Source: Halorubrum laminariae
GTDB taxonomy: Archaea; Halobacteriota; Halobacteria; Halobacteriales; Haloferacaceae
Assembly: GCF_024494655.1 (NCBI RefSeq)
Contig: NZ_JANHDL010000001.1
Span: 434,001-498,000 of the forward strand
Length of the DNA: 64,000 nt
Reading direction: 5' to 3'
The position numbers and the translations under genes were made by a program. Under the pieces are notes generated by a model. That model did no database searches. It saw only the letters and a list, made by a program, of their open reading frames with translations, and was not told the DNA's origin. Positions within the stretch are counted from its first letter, which is position 1, and each line of letters starts with the position of its first letter. This document shows positions 1,120 through 34,470 of this stretch, piece by piece.

Positions 1120-4100
1120 TCACATGAAGTCCGCGATACCCGACTGCTTGTTGGTGTCGTCCTCGAAGATCGACTCCAGCGAGTCGTCTAACACCTGCAG
1201 CCGCTGTTTGGTGTAGGGACGGCAGCCGAACCGGTCGGCCACCTCGATGGCCGTGTCTACGTACTTGCTCACCGAGCCCTCGTGGACGGTGAGGTTCACC
1301 CGGCCGCCGCACTCCCGACAGTCCCCGCTCAGGGGCATCCGGCGGTACTTCTCCCCGCAGTCGAGACACCGCGTCTCCTGTCGCGAGAAGGCGCGAAGGT
1401 TTCCGATGATGTCCGGCAGGAAGTGGTACTCGATGACCCGCTCGGCCACGTCGGTCTCGTCGACGGCGCGGAGCTTCCGCGCGAGTTCCAACTGCGCGTC
1501 CATCTTCTCCATCATGTCGCCGAGCGTCTTGTACGCCGAGAGATCCGGTCCCATCGCGATGTCCGTCGTGTCGTGCGTGTGGTCGAACCCGTGATACTCG
1601 TCGTCGGTCCCGAGCGTGTCCTCACCGATCTGTATCAGCTCCTCGACCGACTCCGGATCGGCCATCTCAAGCGTCGCCTCGTACAGCTCTACGGGGTACT
1701 CCCGAACGATGTCGACGTTGTGCGCCTCGTCGTCGATCTCGGCGGGATCGATCCGCGATGACATCACGAGGGGCGCGTCCATTCTTCCACCTCTTTGATC
1801 TGGCAAAAAGGTCTTAGAGAAATTGAGAAGTCCGTCCATAAGAAGCATAACGCAATCCTCGTCACCGTCGCAGTTGCGGCGCTTTGCGGCGTGGAAGTAC
1901 GGATGCGCGTATCCCACCGCCGCCGACGTGAAACCCACCACTCTTCCGACAGTTGCCGCGCTCGTGTGCGGGGCCATCCCGAAGACCAGCTCGCCGACGA
2001 GGTCGTCGCGCTCGTTTACCTCGTAGAAGCGGTCGAGCCCGTAGAACTGCGCTAAGAGGTCGTCGACGAAGTCCGCGGTCTTCAGCATGTGCTCTGCCGC
2101 GCCGTCGGAGAGCACGATGTCTTGCACCTTCAGCTCGACCAGCTGGTCGTCGTGGCGCAGCGGCTCGCCGTCGATATCCGTCTCGTAGCCGAGTTCTCGG
2201 AAGTGGTCGGCGGTGACGTCGAGCTCCTCCGGGCGGACCGCCGTGACCGGGAGATCGGTCATGTCGTACCTGACCGTTCCGTCTTTGAACGACGTGACGC
2301 CGTTTTTCGCCCGGAGGACGCCCTTCTCTATCGGCTCCGGCGTCTTGTTCCGCGAGGTGAGCCCCTGAACCCCCTTGAGGATCTCGAACGCCGACTCGCG
2401 TTCGCCGACCGCCTCCATCGCCGAGTGGTAGGCGTCGTGCACGTCGATCTCGCGGCGATTCGCGGCGGTCACCTCCCACTCGCAGCGCGGGCAGACGACG
2501 CGTCCCGCCTCGTCTGGCTCGCAGACGGTCCCGCACTGGCCGCACTCGTAGTGGAGGTCGGTGTGCGTCTCGCAGTCGGGACACAGCGCCCGATAGGTGT
2601 GTTCACCGCAGTCGGGACAGACGCGGTCTGCGACCTCTACCTCCAGCCGGCCGCGACGGCCCGTGTCGTCCATCACGTTCGCGGCCTCCGCGACGTCGCG
2701 CTGGGGACCGCCAGCCTCGGTTATCGGGAACAGCGTGTGGACCGCCGGGGAGAGGTCGCGGCTCTCCGACTTCTCCGGGCGGCCCATTCGGTTTCCGATC
2801 CGGGTCGGCGCGCGTTCGCGGATTTCGAACGGAGCGACCTCGGCGACCGCCCGCACCGCGTTGTCGCCGCCGTCCCACTCACGGGCGTCCGCCGAGAGGT
2901 CATCCGCGGCCCACGTCTTCCGGAGGCCGTCGTCGACGCCGAGCGACCGCGCCAGCGGCCGCCAGGTGGGGATCCGCAGCGCGTCCGGCGTGGCGGCGTG
3001 CTCGACCAACAGCGCCTCCAACGCCTCTCGGGTCGTCTCCGTGCGCTCGATCGCGAGGACGCCCTCGACCACGTCGCCGTCGGCGACCGCGTCGGCGAGC
3101 GTCTCGAACGCTTGGACAGAGATGTCGTGCCAGAGGTAGGTGTACTCGGGGTGAAGCGGGCAGTCGTACGCCTCGGCCCACTCCAGCGCCGCCTCGACGC
3201 TCGGATGTTCGAGGTCGACGCCGGGGTCGTCCGAGAGCGCTTGAACGTCCGCACCGGCCGCCTCGAACTCCTGCACCCACCACTCGTACACGTACGACGC
3301 GGGGGCGAGCGCGTGATTGTTCTCGATGAACTCCCCGTAGTTGACCAGATACTCGCCCAGATCGAGCACCTTCTCGATCCCGTTGCGAATCGCCTTCGCC
3401 TCCTCGGGATCGTCGATTTGACGGACCTCACCGTTCGCGAGGCGGACGGTCGGCCCGTCGATGGAATCGACGGGGACGACGCCGTGGGCCTTTCCCGGGC
3501 GTTCGGTCTTGATCTGGGTGCCGGCCGCGAGGAAGTCGTCGACGATGTGCATCGTCGCGGGGTGGACGCCGCCGGTTGCGAACCCGTGGTTCCGCGCACG
3601 GCCGTACCGGAGCCGGAAGCCGCCCGCTTCGCTCGGGTGGGTGAACACCGGGCGGCCGGCGATGAGGTCGCGCAGGAACTTCTGAGCGGACTCCGCTCTG
3701 GGAGGCCCGGCAGGCTCGGTGTGCTGCTCGTCGACCGCGGAGACATCCGGGTCCGCGGCCTCGGCTGGATCACCGTCGTCGCCAGCGGCGGCGGCGTCGT
3801 CGTCCGCGTCGCTAGCGTCGTCGCCGTCGCCCACGCCGTCCCTCCCGATCGTCCCGTCGATCAGGTCTTGGAGCCACGGCCAGTCGACCTCGTCGAGGTT
3901 GCGGGTGTACCGCTGAATCTTGGGGGCCTTGAGCGCGATTCCCTCCGCGGCAACGAGACACATCCCGCCGCGGGCGGAGTTGGTGTCGACGCGCTCCAAG
4001 TCGCGAAATCCCGAGACCTCCTCGTCGCTCGTCGCCTCCCCGTCCAGCATGATGGGTATGTGCTTGGCGATGAACTTCGACTCCTTGTCCTTCGGCGTGT

Positions 4101-4683
4101 ACTGGAGCCCGGTCTCCGTGTCGTACAGCGCGATCTCCTCGGCGTATCGCTCGACCTCCACGTCGCGCGGTTTGTACTCGTCGATACCCAGAAGCGCCCG
4201 GGCGTAGTCCGCGACGAGCACCGACAGCGCCTGCGCCGTACCGCCGGCGGAGCGTATCGGGCCGGCGTAGTAGACGTTGATGAACTCCGTACCGTCGTCG
4301 TTCTCCAACAGCTCGACGCGGTCGATCCCCTCGATCGGCGCGGCGACGACGCCCTCGGTGAGCAGTGCAACCGCGGTTCGGACCGCCCCCTCGACTTTCC
4401 CCTCGCGGGAGTCGTAGTCGCCGACGCTGCCGTCGACGAAGTCTTTTACAAGCTCCAGAGCCGCCTCTTCGCGAGACATCTGCCCTTCCAGCTCGCGGAC
4501 CCGCACTGCGACGCCGTCGATGCCCAAGATGTTCTCGACGCGGTCGGCCATGTCGCGGGCGACCGGAATCTCGATTTCGGGCTCCGGATCACGTCCCTGC
4601 TCTTTCGCGGCCTCCGCGACCGCCCACGCCTCATCGAGTCGGTCTTCAATCCGGGCGAAGTAGCGCTTGTCGTCGGGCCTCAT
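1120..4683 (-). CDS. polC: DNA polymerase D large (catalytic) subunit DP2, 1187 aa
   Basis: Large subunit of the archaeal replicative polymerase PolD. ATG at 4683 is chosen because the open frame upstream of it overlaps the next gene. The catalytic region holds KRRNCDGDEDCVMLLMDG, with the metal-binding DxD at D939/D941. Zinc-binding cysteine pairs occur at about 689-734 and at C1106/C1109/C1122/C1125. An acidic low-complexity linker (about 286-316) interrupts the N-terminal part. There is no intein at the NCDGDED site, where some archaea carry one. The last eight residues, QSGIADFM, fit a PCNA-interacting (PIP) box. The gene starts 28 bases after the PPC-domain gene, suggesting cotranscription. 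Confidence 0.97.
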   Translation of the reverse strand: MRPDDKRYFARIEDRLDEAWAVAEAAKEQGRDPEPEIEIPVARDMADRVENILGIDGVAVRVRELEGQMSREEAALELVKDFVDGSVGDYDSREGKVEGAVRTAVALLTEGVVAAPIEGIDRVELLENDDGTEFINVYYAGPIRSAGGTAQALSVLVADYARALLGIDEYKPRDVEVERYAEEIALYDTETGLQYTPKDKESKFIAKHIPIMLDGEATSDEEVSGFRDLERVDTNSARGGMCLVAAEGIALKAPKIQRYTRNLDEVDWPWLQDLIDGTIGRDGVGDGDDASDADDDAAAAGDDGDPAEAADPDVSAVDEQHTEPAGPPRAESAQKFLRDLIAGRPVFTHPSEAGGFRLRYGRARNHGFATGGVHPATMHIVDDFLAAGTQIKTERPGKAHGVVPVDSIDGPTVRLANGEVRQIDDPEEAKAIRNGIEKVLDLGEYLVNYGEFIENNHALAPASYVYEWWVQEFEAAGADVQALSDDPGVDLEHPSVEAALEWAEAYDCPLHPEYTYLWHDISVQAFETLADAVADGDVVEGVLAIERTETTREALEALLVEHAATPDALRIPTWRPLARSLGVDDGLRKTWAADDLSADAREWDGGDNAVRAVAEVAPFEIRERAPTRIGNRMGRPEKSESRDLSPAVHTLFPITEAGGPQRDVAEAANVMDDTGRRGRLEVEVADRVCPDCGEHTYRALCPDCETHTDLHYECGQCGTVCEPDEAGRVVCPRCEWEVTAANRREIDVHDAYHSAMEAVGERESAFEILKGVQGLTSRNKTPEPIEKGVLRAKNGVTSFKDGTVRYDMTDLPVTAVRPEELDVTADHFRELGYETDIDGEPLRHDDQLVELKVQDIVLSDGAAEHMLKTADFVDDLLAQFYGLDRFYEVNERDDLVGELVFGMAPHTSAATVGRVVGFTSAAVGYAHPYFHAAKRRNCDGDEDCVMLLMDGLLNFSKTFLPDQRGGRMDAPLVMSSRIDPAEIDDEAHNVDIVREYPVELYEATLEMADPESVEELIQIGEDTLGTDDEYHGFDHTHDTTDIAMGPDLSAYKTLGDMMEKMDAQLELARKLRAVDETDVAERVIEYHFLPDIIGNLRAFSRQETRCLDCGEKYRRMPLSGDCRECGGRVNLTVHEGSVSKYVDTAIEVADRFGCRPYTKQRLQVLDDSLESIFEDDTNKQSGIADFM

Positions 4684-4711
4684 CGCGGTAGCTCGGGTCG
4701 TCCTCGCCGCC

Positions 4712-5131
4712 TCACAGCCACAGGTCGAGGTCGGTGGTCGGGTCGTGTTCGCGCTCCAACGGCTCGTCGAACGCGCGGAGGTGACACTCGCCCGCCCAGA
4801 CGGTCGCCGAGTCGAGATGGCCGGCCAGCGCCTGTCCGCTCGGCCGCGAGAGCACGGCGTGGGTGTGCGCGAACACGTCGCCCTCAAGCAGCGAGACATT
4901 GCCGACGCAGGCCGCGACCTCCAGCGGTTCGTCGAACGTCACCGACTGGTACTCCGTGTCCTCTTGGTCGTAGAACCAGACGTCGGCGTCTTGGACGGCC
5001 CCGAGCGCCGTGAACCAGCCAGCCTCGACATCTTCGGCGCGGGCGAGGTCTTCGATCTCCTCGCGCCAGTCGGCACCGGTCTCGAACCGCGCGACGTACT
5101 CCGCAGTCGTCTCGACTTCTCGGTGATGCAT
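4712..5131 (-). CDS. PPC/DUF296-domain DNA-binding-type protein (139 aa)
   Basis: Single PPC (plants and prokaryotes conserved, DUF296) domain. Family members form trimers with a metal site made of histidines; in plants the domain is joined to AT-hooks. Seen here: VFAHTHAVLS (H89, H91) and AGHLDSATVWAGECHL (H105), the expected metal-ligand pattern. No AT-hook is present. ATG at 5131 starts the conserved domain directly (MHHREVETTAEY). It lies immediately upstream of polC with a 28-base gap, so cotranscription is likely. A role in nucleoid or replication control would be speculation; the biochemical function of archaeal members is not established. Confidence 0.85.
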   Translation of the reverse strand: MHHREVETTAEYVARFETGADWREEIEDLARAEDVEAGWFTALGAVQDADVWFYDQEDTEYQSVTFDEPLEVAACVGNVSLLEGDVFAHTHAVLSRPSGQALAGHLDSATVWAGECHLRAFDEPLEREHDPTTDLDLWL

Positions 5132-5330
5132 GCACGCGCCAACGACCGCCGGGGGCAAAAACCCTGTCGACGACCAGCCGGCGACGAAACGCGCCTGCAC
5201 CCCGCCAGATGAGAATTGATATAGCAGTTTGTGGTTTACTTCAACAGTTCGGCGTCAGTGGAGATGTCGAACGCAGATGGAACTCCAAGCGTTGAAAACC
5301 CGCAAATCGAGAACGTCGGAACGTGTCCGC

Positions 5331-30398: not shown

Positions 30399-31598
30399 AT
30401 GAGACGGACGACCGCCGTCGCCGCGCTGCTCGTCGTTGTCGGCGTCGGACTGGCCCTCTCGGGGGTCTTCGCCGGGCCGCCGGCAGAGGATCCGGACGCG
30501 ACGATCGCCGCGGACTCGCTGGTCGCGGTCGAGGGAGAGTATCAGTTGTGGCCGTACACCAGCCGGGACACGTCGGTCGCGGGCCGGACGCTCGCGATCA
30601 ACGTCGTGTTCCGCGCAGACGCCGCGACGACCCGTCGAGCGATCGAACACCGGTCCGACGCGGACTGGGAGGAGACGACCGAGGCGGAGACGGCGGCCAC
30701 CGGCAACGCCGATCAGGTCCGGGCGATAGTCGAGCGGGACTGGGCGGACGCGCGGAGTTCGACGCGGTACAGTTACGTGCGCGGATCTGAGGGAGGGATC
30801 TGGATGGCCGAGACGTTCGAACTCCACGACGGTTCGTATCTCGGCGTCCGCGACCACCTCCGCGCCTACGAGTCGCCAGACGGGGCGTACACGGCCGTCC
30901 AAGCCCACGAGGAGTACTACGACTGGTTCCGGCTGCGTCACACGGTCCCCGGAATCGACGAACCCAAAACCCGCCTAGAGAACGAACTCATCCGCGGATC
31001 GGTGGACGCCGAAGTCACCCGCGAGTACCGCGGCATCGACGGCGGCTGGAGCGACGGGTGGCTCACGATCGTCGATCTGGCCTCTGCGGCGGCGCTTGCG
31101 GCCCTCGGCGGAATCCTACTTCGACGACAGACACGGCGGGCCGCCGTCGACCTCGCCCGCCGGGGGCGACGAGACGCTCGCCGACACGCGCGGGCAGCAG
31201 CGCTCGGCGTCTCGCTCGCGCTCATCGTCGTTGGCGTTCGCGCGACGGGCGTGGCCGTCGAGACGCTGGTCCCGACGCTTCCCCCGAAGGCGATCGCCGC
31301 CCCGCTGTACCTCGTCCTCGCCGTCGGCCTGCCCGGGATCGTGGTCGCGCTCGCGCGAAGGTGCGACCCGTCAGCCGCGGCGCTCGCCGTCGCGATCGGC
31401 CTCGGTGTCGGGTTCGTCGCCGACTTCGCCGCACTCGGGGTCGCGATCCCGCCCGCCCTCATCGTCCACCGAGTCGCCCTGATCGCCGCGCTCGGCGTGG
31501 TCTCACTGGGCCGAGCGGCCGACGGCCGTCCGGTTCTGGCCGCCGGAGCGGTCGCGTGGGCGGTCGGGTTGGTACTTCCGCTCGCGGACGTGATCTGA
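30399..31598 (+). CDS. Membrane protein with LssY-C-like extracytoplasmic domain (399 aa)
   Basis: An N-terminal membrane anchor (about 5-25) is followed by an extracytoplasmic domain (about 40-215). GEYQLWPYTSRDTSVAGRTL, AINVVFRADAATTRRAIEHR, DHLRAYESPDG and the end HTVPGIDEPKTRLENELI resemble the C-terminal domain of LssY-type proteins. About five more helices run from 225 to 399. LssY-C domains are often joined to DedA or PAP2 membrane enzymes; a PAP2 gene lies two genes downstream. The similarity is a reading, not an alignment. Followed after 143 bases by the solute-binding lipoprotein. Confidence 0.6.
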   Translation: MRRTTAVAALLVVVGVGLALSGVFAGPPAEDPDATIAADSLVAVEGEYQLWPYTSRDTSVAGRTLAINVVFRADAATTRRAIEHRSDADWEETTEAETAATGNADQVRAIVERDWADARSSTRYSYVRGSEGGIWMAETFELHDGSYLGVRDHLRAYESPDGAYTAVQAHEEYYDWFRLRHTVPGIDEPKTRLENELIRGSVDAEVTREYRGIDGGWSDGWLTIVDLASAAALAALGGILLRRQTRRAAVDLARRGRRDARRHARAAALGVSLALIVVGVRATGVAVETLVPTLPPKAIAAPLYLVLAVGLPGIVVALARRCDPSAAALAVAIGLGVGFVADFAALGVAIPPALIVHRVALIAALGVVSLGRAADGRPVLAAGAVAWAVGLVLPLADVI

Positions 31599-31741
31599 TC
31601 GACTCCTCCGGGTGCCGAACACGCCCGATCCCCGCGGAAACCGGCCGGGCAAAAATCGACCGAGACGGCCAGTCGAGACCGGTGTCCGCGAAGGGTCGAC
31701 CACAGAAGAGATATACCTCGGCGGCGAAAGAGCATCGACGC

Positions 31742-33673
31742 ATGGGTCGACCGATCAGCCGTCGGCAGACGCTCGCTGGACTCGCCGCAGCGACCGCGAG
31801 CGGCGGCTGTCTCGGTCGCACGCGCAATCTCGCGGGACGCGAAATGTCCTCGCAGTTGACTCTCCAGATAGACGCGGTGCCCGCCGATCGGGACCCGAAC
31901 GCGATCCGGATCGCGAGACACCTCGCAGAGAACCTCAAGGCGGTGGGCGTCGACGCTCGGATCAACACGCTCGACCAAACCACGCTCTGGCGAAAGGTAC
32001 TCATCAACCAGAACTTCGATGCGTACGTCGGCCAGTTCCTCGAACCGGAGCCGTTCGACCCGGACGCGCTGTACGCGTTCACGCACTCGCGGTTCGCCGC
32101 GGAAGTGGGCCGACAGAACCCGTTCGGATTCGCCGACCTCAACGGCGTCGACGACGAACTCGAACGCCAGCGCCGCGCGGAAAGCGATCGGAGCGATCCA
32201 GTGGCGGATCTCCAGCGGTCGCTCGGCGAGCTACAGCCGTTCACCGTCGTGGCGGTTCCCGATCCGCTCACCGCGGTCCGCGAAGCGCAATTCGACGGGT
32301 GGAGTCAGGGACAGCCGCTGTCGGTCGCCGGCCTGCTGTCGCTCGATCACACGGAAACGACCGGCGACGCGACCGGCGGTGACGGAAACGCAACCGAGAT
32401 CAGCGAGATTCTCGACGGCGACGACGGAAACGCCACCGCGGCCGGCGCGGCAAGCGACCTCCTCGACGGCGACGACGGGCCAGAAGGGGTGGCCACGCTC
32501 CGACTGGTGACGACCGACAGCGGTATCACGGAAAACTGGAACCCGATCGCGGCGGAGTATCGTCGCCAAGGGACGTTCACGTCGCTGCTGTACGACCGGC
32601 TCGTGCTGGTCGACGACGGCGAGGTCGTCCCGTGGCTCGCGACGGACTGGGAGCGCATCGGTCCCGAGACCGTCGAGGTCTCGTTGCGCGACGCGAGCTG
32701 GCACGACGGCGAACCCCTCACCGCCGCCGACGTGGCGTTCACCTACGAGTTCCTCCGCGACACGTCGATGGGGACGATGGAGACACCGGTTCCGACTCCG
32801 CGGTTCCGTGGCCGGAGCTCGGTCGTCCAGTCGGCTCTCGCGGTCGACGACCGCACCGTGCAGCTCGGCGTTGAGAACGTCAACCGAGCGGTGATCGACC
32901 GCGCGCTCCGCGTGCCGATCCTGCCGGAGCACGTGTGGCGTGACCGTACCGACGCCGCGACGATCGCCGACTTCGAGGTCGACGCGGAGACGACAGAGGC
33001 AGTTGTCGCGACCAACGAGAATCCGGTCGGAAGCGGACCGATTCGGTTCGTGGAGGCGACGGCGGAGGAGTCGGCCGTCTTCGAACGGAACCCGGACCAC
33101 TTCCTCGCGCGAGCCGAGGCGTGGGACGGCGAGGCATCGGCGAACCCCGCGGCCGGCGTCCCCGAGCGGCTCCACGGGAAGCCGGCGTTCGACCGGCTCG
33201 AAGTCGGCGTGCTGCCCTCGGACATCGCGGCGGTACAGGCGGTCGGCGACGGGTTCGCCGACGCCACCGTCTCGAACCTCGGCCCCGATTCGATCCCGCG
33301 GATCGGCCGCGAGGCCGACGCTCGACTCGTGGCCGGCCAGTCGGGCGCGTTCTACCATGTCGGCTACAACGTGCGGCGGCCACCACTGTCGAACCCGCGG
33401 TTCCGCGGTATCCTCGCGTCGCTGATCGACAAGGAAACCCTCGTCGAGGAGGCGTTCGACGGCTACGCGGAACCGGCGTCGTCGCCGCTTTCGGTCTCGC
33501 CCGAGTGGGTTCCCGACGACCTGCGGTGGGACGACCGCTCGTCCGACCCGATCTATCCGTTCGCGGACGATCCGGGAACCGGCTCACTCGACGTCGAGAA
33601 GGCGCGAGACCTGTTCCGAGACGCCGGCTATCGGTTCGATGACCAAGGCCGATTGCTCGCGAAACAGCAATGA
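31742..33673 (+). CDS. Family 5 solute-binding lipoprotein, apparently circularly permuted (643 aa)
   Basis: A Tat lipoprotein signal is visible: SRRQTLAGLAAATASGGC, twin Arg 7-8, lipobox Cys 23. Residues 38-200 look like the C-terminal part of DppA/OppA-like proteins: IARHLAENLKAVGVDARINT, FDAYVGQFLEPEPFDPD and so on. An acidic Asn/Asp/Gly linker (about 203-248) follows. Residues 250-643 are the normal N-terminal part, with WHDGEPLTAADVAFTYEFL and LASLIDKETLVEEAF, ending at DLFRDAGYRFDDQGRLL, exactly where a normal protein would continue with the block found here at the N-terminus. No ABC permease or ATPase is adjacent. The stop overlaps the PAP2 start (ATGA). Ligand unknown. Confidence 0.85.
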   Translation: MGRPISRRQTLAGLAAATASGGCLGRTRNLAGREMSSQLTLQIDAVPADRDPNAIRIARHLAENLKAVGVDARINTLDQTTLWRKVLINQNFDAYVGQFLEPEPFDPDALYAFTHSRFAAEVGRQNPFGFADLNGVDDELERQRRAESDRSDPVADLQRSLGELQPFTVVAVPDPLTAVREAQFDGWSQGQPLSVAGLLSLDHTETTGDATGGDGNATEISEILDGDDGNATAAGAASDLLDGDDGPEGVATLRLVTTDSGITENWNPIAAEYRRQGTFTSLLYDRLVLVDDGEVVPWLATDWERIGPETVEVSLRDASWHDGEPLTAADVAFTYEFLRDTSMGTMETPVPTPRFRGRSSVVQSALAVDDRTVQLGVENVNRAVIDRALRVPILPEHVWRDRTDAATIADFEVDAETTEAVVATNENPVGSGPIRFVEATAEESAVFERNPDHFLARAEAWDGEASANPAAGVPERLHGKPAFDRLEVGVLPSDIAAVQAVGDGFADATVSNLGPDSIPRIGREADARLVAGQSGAFYHVGYNVRRPPLSNPRFRGILASLIDKETLVEEAFDGYAEPASSPLSVSPEWVPDDLRWDDRSSDPIYPFADDPGTGSLDVEKARDLFRDAGYRFDDQGRLLAKQQ

Positions 33674-34470
33674 GTCCGTTCGTCTCCGTCGTCGGATCGG
33701 TCGTGCTGTGGCTCTGCGCGTCGCTGCTCGTCGCCGCGATCGCGATCGTCCGGCCGAACCGTCTGTACGGTCTGTGGGGGAACCTCGTGCCGCGGCTGCG
33801 GGACGCGCAGCGGGAAATCGCCGCGCTCGGTGCGGTGTTGCTGGTCAGCGCCGTCGGCCGGAATTCGCTGCAGACAGTCTCGGAGCTGTTCGGGCTGCGG
33901 CTGACCGGACTCATTTGGGCGTTCGAAGGCAACTTCGTCGAGTGGTTCCAGCAGACGTACGCCACCCCCGAGCTGACGATATACTTCTCGTCGGTGTACG
34001 TGTACGGCTACGCGTTCTTACTCGCGTTTCCGTTCCTCGCGTATCTCGCGCTCCCGAAGACGACGACCCTGAAGCGGCTGCTCGTCGCGTACGCGTTCAA
34101 CTACGCTATCGGGCTCGCGCTCTACACGATCGTGTTCGCACACGGTCCGCGGAACCTGCACGTCGGTACGTCGCTGTTGTACACCCACAACCCAAACGTC
34201 AGCGCGCTGACGAGCGCGATCAACGAGACGACGAACGTCTTCCCCTCGCTGCACACGTCGCTTTCCGTGACCGTCGCGACGTTCGCCGTGCTGACGCGCG
34301 AGGAGTACCCGTTGTGGACGCCGCTCGCCGCGTGGCTCGCCGGGTCCGTGGTGATCGCGACGATGTACCTCGGCATCCACTGGCTCACGGATGTGATCGG
34401 CGGGACCGTCCTCGCGTTCGGCTGCGTGTACCTCTCGTATCGGATCGTCGATCCTGACGAGATTTCGTGA
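33670..34470 (+). CDS. PAP2/Aur1-like membrane phosphatase or phosphotransferase (266 aa)
   Basis: About six membrane helices. The PAP2 active-site blocks are TNVFPSLHTSLSV (PSxH) and GIHWLTDVIGGTV (H-x3-D); the first block is weaker, around FAHGPRNLH. The VFPSLHTSL form is closer to the Aur1/Ipt1 inositolphosphotransferase-like subgroup than to PgpB. It would act on lipid phosphates or transfer polar head groups at the outer face of the membrane. The start ATG 33670 overlaps the stop of the solute-binding lipoprotein by 4 bases, so both are translated together. Confidence 0.88.
   Translation: MSPFVSVVGSVVLWLCASLLVAAIAIVRPNRLYGLWGNLVPRLRDAQREIAALGAVLLVSAVGRNSLQTVSELFGLRLTGLIWAFEGNFVEWFQQTYATPELTIYFSSVYVYGYAFLLAFPFLAYLALPKTTTLKRLLVAYAFNYAIGLALYTIVFAHGPRNLHVGTSLLYTHNPNVSALTSAINETTNVFPSLHTSLSVTVATFAVLTREEYPLWTPLAAWLAGSVVIATMYLGIHWLTDVIGGTVLAFGCVYLSYRIVDPDEIS

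Follow-up and report, generated by a model that had tools for sequence, protein, structure and literature searches.

The question raised by this locus was whether the protein encoded at 31742..33673 of the window (the whole stretch of 64,000 nucleotides from Halorubrum laminariae that was analysed; the genes and protein parts described from it lie on the forward strand) belongs to the family 5 solute-binding proteins but has the parts of its chain in exchanged order and, if so, what such a receptor might serve. Few transport receptors have been studied as much as the family 5 binding proteins; those of the permuted type are publicly annotated merely as ABC transporter substrate-binding proteins. 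The original prediction described a Tat lipoprotein, and its open reading frame, twin-arginine motif and lipobox were all found at these coordinates. The 643-residue sequence displayed a Tat motif SRRQTLAG and a lipobox GGC ending in the lipid cysteine Cys23 (residues 1-23, 31742..31810), which is the succession of twin-arginine motif and lipobox cysteine expected of a Tat-exported archaeal lipoprotein. Gly22 and Cys23 were invariant in an alignment of 27 orthologues, and the lipid cysteine occupied the aligned column in all 87 proteins of the window family.

Against the Pfam profile PF00496, residues 294-634 matched positions 1-282 (E 6e-49) and the N-terminal piece, scored alone, matched positions 294-364 (E 7e-6, 25.8 bits). 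In native order the protein reached 167.5 bits in two stretches, far above the gathering cut-off of 32.4 bits; with the blocks swapped, it gave a single contiguous match to positions 1-364 (of 368) with 180.1 bits, the whole SBP_bac_5 domain being present in the swapped chain. A full-length HMM built from 33 canonical-order proteins divided the sequence similarly: residues 32-182 (approximately) corresponded to profile positions 363-511 (35.1 bits) and residues 231-631 to positions 21-365 (120.8 bits, the best native match). When the protein was cut at every tenth residue and each rotation was scored with this HMM, a peak appeared at residue ~210, where the match covered positions 21-510 with 153.6 bits. 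Seven further proteins of canonical order, scored with this HMM, were each matched in a single uninterrupted stretch.

The predicted arrangement was thereby borne out in both of its parts: the N-terminal block (residues ~38-201, 31853..32344) is equivalent to the canonical C-terminal third and the C-terminal block (residues 250-640, 32489..33661) to the canonical N-terminal two thirds, and the swapped order scores higher and without interruption with either profile. Because the canonical linear order of SBP_bac_5 was not met, the block of positions 363-511 preceding that of positions 21-365, the protein was filed as a permuted variant and not as an ordinary member. Residues ~202-249 (32345..32488) form an acidic linker between the old C- and N-termini. 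Its proposed role in joining these termini could be retained, but not the idea that it is acidic and long in every relative, since its length varied from 7 to 80 residues. Judged from the sequence alone, the old termini are linked and the chain is reopened between a helix 'ARDLFRDAGY' and a strand 'LTLQI'.

A truncated binding protein carrying an unrelated N-terminal domain, or a mere chance resemblance, would need no permutation and is compatible with the score of the N-terminal block by itself, which remained under the Pfam cut-off (25.8 against 32.4 bits). However, the blocks complement each other exactly along the profile, and both were present in each of 22 permuted proteins, in which the N-terminal block started at profile position ~362-390 and the second block ended at 345-370. 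Swapping also merged the match in four relatives besides the window protein, the scores rising from 115 to 165 bits (L039), 106 to 166 (L041), 159 to 233 (Ketogulonicigenium) and 167 to 212 (Maritalea). No longer single match was obtained in the rotation scan for six other relatives (L046, Harcmarina, Halorussus, Hjeot, Hbacmag and Hstag136), probably because the signal peptide and the C-terminal tail sit between their blocks; the two blocks were seen separately in each of them, in permuted order. We therefore consider this alternative very improbable, and chance similarity of the N-terminal block is ruled out by the profile complementarity together with the rotation scan. An assembly or frameshift artefact is hardly conceivable: the gene is a single open frame, no evidence in support of an artefact was found, and the identical order of 86 orthologous reading frames, drawn from many genomes, refutes it. 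The search of haloarchaeal genomes proposed with the original prediction thus returned the permuted order in 86 of 86 family ORFs, 83 by a simple rule and three in which the second block was divided into two parts, and such conservation excludes chance and misassembly alike. That this is a natural circular permutation of a family 5 solute-binding protein is practically certain.

The AlphaFold model of the window protein was weak (pLDDT 56, pTM 0.43), for which reason the Halosimplex orthologue, in which the internal linker is almost absent, was modelled instead (pLDDT 74.2, pTM 0.74). Residues 184-561 of this model superposed with Z ~20 on solved structures of family 5, over residues ~1-345 of the latter, among them 8efz_B (311 residues, 2.1 A, Z 20.4) and 1xoc_A (Z 20.3); the superposition on DppA that had been suggested as a check was also obtained (1dpp_A, Z 19.1). 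Structural aligners follow chain order, which left the N-terminal 183 residues outside the superposition; these would supply the missing third, their packing not having been directly aligned. The chain break is situated in what we take to be domain III (lobe 2), by the published domain limits of OppA and DppA. Sequence and fold searches reported no PDB chain in permuted family 5 order, the existence of which is not excluded.

A scan of named genomes revealed orthologues of the same order in Halorubrum, Halobellus, Halopenitus, Halosimplex and a Haloarculaceae MAG. Among 292 Halobacteria genomes, 223 displayed a match at 1e-10 and roughly 190 harbored the window family (manual count of rows at 1e-40 or better). 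The permutation was wider than this family, since two more groups shared its breakpoint, and nearly all of their members were located inside complete peptide/nickel ABC operons. A second permuted family 5 protein of the same genome (L046:8063-9889, that is C40:126062-127888) was encoded by the final gene of a complete opp/dpp-type permease/ATPase operon. The third group, gathered from plasmid records, was found in Alphaproteobacteria and haloarchaea, again in ABC operons; members from Ketogulonicigenium, Nitratireductor, Roseomonas and Maritalea were read, and Microvirga and Neorhizobium were included by long single matches. The bacterial spread of the permutation rests on these plasmid records only. 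Hydantoinase, M20 or creatininase genes lay near several of the third-group operons, and in Halostagnicola (L136) two permeases accompanied the permuted gene with no ATPase listed. One record of Neorhizobium galegae (CP090555.1:575310-576873) contains a permuted gene that matched in two pieces, annotated as two features, which likely results from a frameshift or decay.

In all three permuted groups the breakpoint fell at PF00496 position 282-286. One ancestral permutation event would be the simplest reading of these sequences and is not proven. At least two independent permutations at the same breakpoint, a matter of origin only and compatible with either function discussed below, could explain why a canonical Cytobacillus protein (L143) appeared among the permuted proteins in the free tree of reordered sequences, where 22 permuted proteins grouped with it (98/99). 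The AU test, in contrast, gave no reason to reject a single clade of permuted proteins (p 0.55), the likelihood being slightly higher when the permuted proteins were held together, and the breakpoint is common to all groups; independent events are accordingly regarded as improbable. The Cytobacillus firmus protein (L143:1417-3213), which is of canonical order, branches next to the permuted group and is preceded by a PIG-L deacetylase gene, may be the nearest unpermuted relative.

The tether of the window family, counted from the lipid cysteine up to the last residue ahead of the first strand (Cys23 to Gln38, 31808..31855), was exactly 16 residues long in each of the 87 proteins (57 distinct sequences), and its conserved pattern approximates C-L-G-R-T-R-N-I-A-G-R-D. 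Canonical haloarchaeal family 5 proteins displayed tethers of about 9-62 residues, mostly rich in Gly, Asp and Ser (approximate lengths, obtained with a simple pattern after exclusion of two evident misreadings), and those of ABC-linked permuted archaeal proteins ranged from 13 to 59 residues. By inference, a constant tether beside a variable internal linker suggests that the placement of the clamshell above the membrane is under selection.

The gene was directly followed by that of a PAP2_3-family membrane protein (33670..34470; PF14378 56 bits, PF01569 47 bits, both above cut-off), the start codon of which overlaps the stop of the binding protein gene by four bases (ATGA). A PAP2-family gene occupied this place in 61 of the 64 window-family loci, with a 4-bp overlap in 30, so that the association with PAP2 foreseen in the original prediction holds. 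Pairs were encountered in Haloferax gibbonsii pHG2, Haloarcula sp. JP-L23 and Natronorubrum bangense, the last of which displayed a tandem of two binding protein-PAP2 pairs. The partner proteins keep the FPSLH and H-x3-D motifs, and the one encoded in the window, with both Pfam cut-offs passed, meets the requirements of the PAP2 superfamily. None of the NCBIfam equivalog cut-offs was even approached (for PgpB, 25.6 bits were obtained where 261 are required), and consequently the substrate cannot be named. A TATA-like 'gatatacc' was noted at 31710-31717, ~25-30 bases 5' of the start codon of the binding protein; its distance fits a leaderless haloarchaeal transcript, and the pair may have its own promoter.

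Upstream, a predicted membrane protein of 399 residues (30399..31598) had counterparts in 39 of 64 loci; it matched no Pfam family above cut-off and its identity was not found, and its Haloferax gibbonsii homologue (L129:4372-5841) is annotated as hypothetical. Aryl-sulfate sulfotransferase genes were observed near the pair in Haloferax gibbonsii (L129:2880-4232) and Haloarcula sp. JP-L23 (L130:843-2198 and 3839-5227), and a link to sulfated surface compounds is possible.

The neighbouring genes included no recognisable permease or ATPase gene, so that the window gene does not qualify as part of a Dpp/Opp-type ABC importer. We infer that the two-lobed clamshell fold is kept and would close on a solute outside the cell; neither a ligand nor binding data are available. 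With the Tat signal and the lipid anchor at the new N-terminus, the protein would be anchored through lobe 2 by its 16-residue tether, the change of anchor face through permutation being itself an inference. Instead of a dedicated ABC importer, its main partner would be the PAP2 enzyme to which it is translationally coupled. The substrate of this enzyme would be a lipid-linked or phosphorylated compound on the outer side of the membrane, and the binding protein, held at a fixed height beside the enzyme, may capture or present the ligand; the function is untested. The partnership with PAP2 is given somewhat better than an even chance. The explanation as a whole (a permuted family 5 protein, anchored through lobe 2, partnered with PAP2 and without a dedicated ABC importer) is favoured by only a small degree. 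Gene pairing is no proof of a complex between the two proteins, and no experiment supports their partnership.

The permuted protein could also be an ordinary import receptor, served by an ABC importer encoded elsewhere, the PAP2 protein only dephosphorylating a nutrient or being a neighbour by operon history. The other permuted groups, with their complete permease/ATPase operons, at least one of them in this very genome, speak for such a role, and their occurrence implies that permutation itself does not exclude import. It is opposed by the tight PAP2 coupling across families, by the short tether of fixed length, which contrasts with the variable ones of ABC-linked relatives, and by the near absence of importer genes: ABC permease-like genes were found near only one of 64 loci (L117), as two matches on opposite strands. 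Ordinary import remains a serious possibility, but not a probable one. Partnership with PAP2, the reading preferred here, can be extended to a class-wide haloarchaeal module, in which a permuted binding protein withdrawn from ABC import would serve an outward-facing PAP2 lipid phosphatase or phosphotransferase as its ligand-binding subunit on a fixed tether, the permutation having moved the anchor such that the clamshell would be set at a defined height and angle over the enzyme. This extension is tentative and falls somewhat short of being probable.

A search of open-access papers found none that describes a natural permutant of family 5; InterPro, CDD, CATH and AlphaFold DB were outside the search, and prior notice of the permutation therefore cannot be excluded. 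The sole co-mention of SBP_bac_5 and circular permutation that was found (PMC2588589) is unrelated. This permutation has been maintained in archaea and in Alphaproteobacteria and occurs in an ABC-linked as well as a PAP2-linked form, which constitutes a natural experiment on the possible role of the anchor point in docking; it also hints at a receptor-enzyme pair, possibly of a new type, on the surface of archaeal cells.

Compared with DppA, OppA, AppA, NikA/NikZ and AccA, the window protein is a clear SBP_bac_5 member by profile score (167.5 against the 32.4-bit cut-off). Its predicted fold resembles that of DppA/OppA-type proteins over two thirds of the chain, and it shares export signal and lipid anchor with other haloarchaeal members. 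It differs from the DppA/OppA type by permutation at profile position ~284, by an anchor on the permuted N-terminus and by the lack of an adjacent ABC permease gene. L046, Ketogulonicigenium WP_273692309.1, Halalkalicoccus WP_238532955.1 and Nitratireductor WP_206544944.1 display identical block order and breakpoint but, unlike the window gene, are located in complete Dpp/Opp-type operons; tether length varies among the archaeal ABC-linked relatives, and the Ketogulonicigenium protein displays, by eye, a Tat-type signal without lipobox. The partner resembles PAP2_3/PAP2 enzymes of the phosphatidylglycerophosphatase B, undecaprenyl-diphosphate phosphatase and inositol phosphorylceramide synthase types in family score and catalytic motifs, and departs from the named equivalogs by its far lower score. 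The same kind of chain rewiring is encountered in the circularly permuted binding proteins engineered for biosensors, which are laboratory designs; in contrast, the permutation of the window family is natural, old and conserved.
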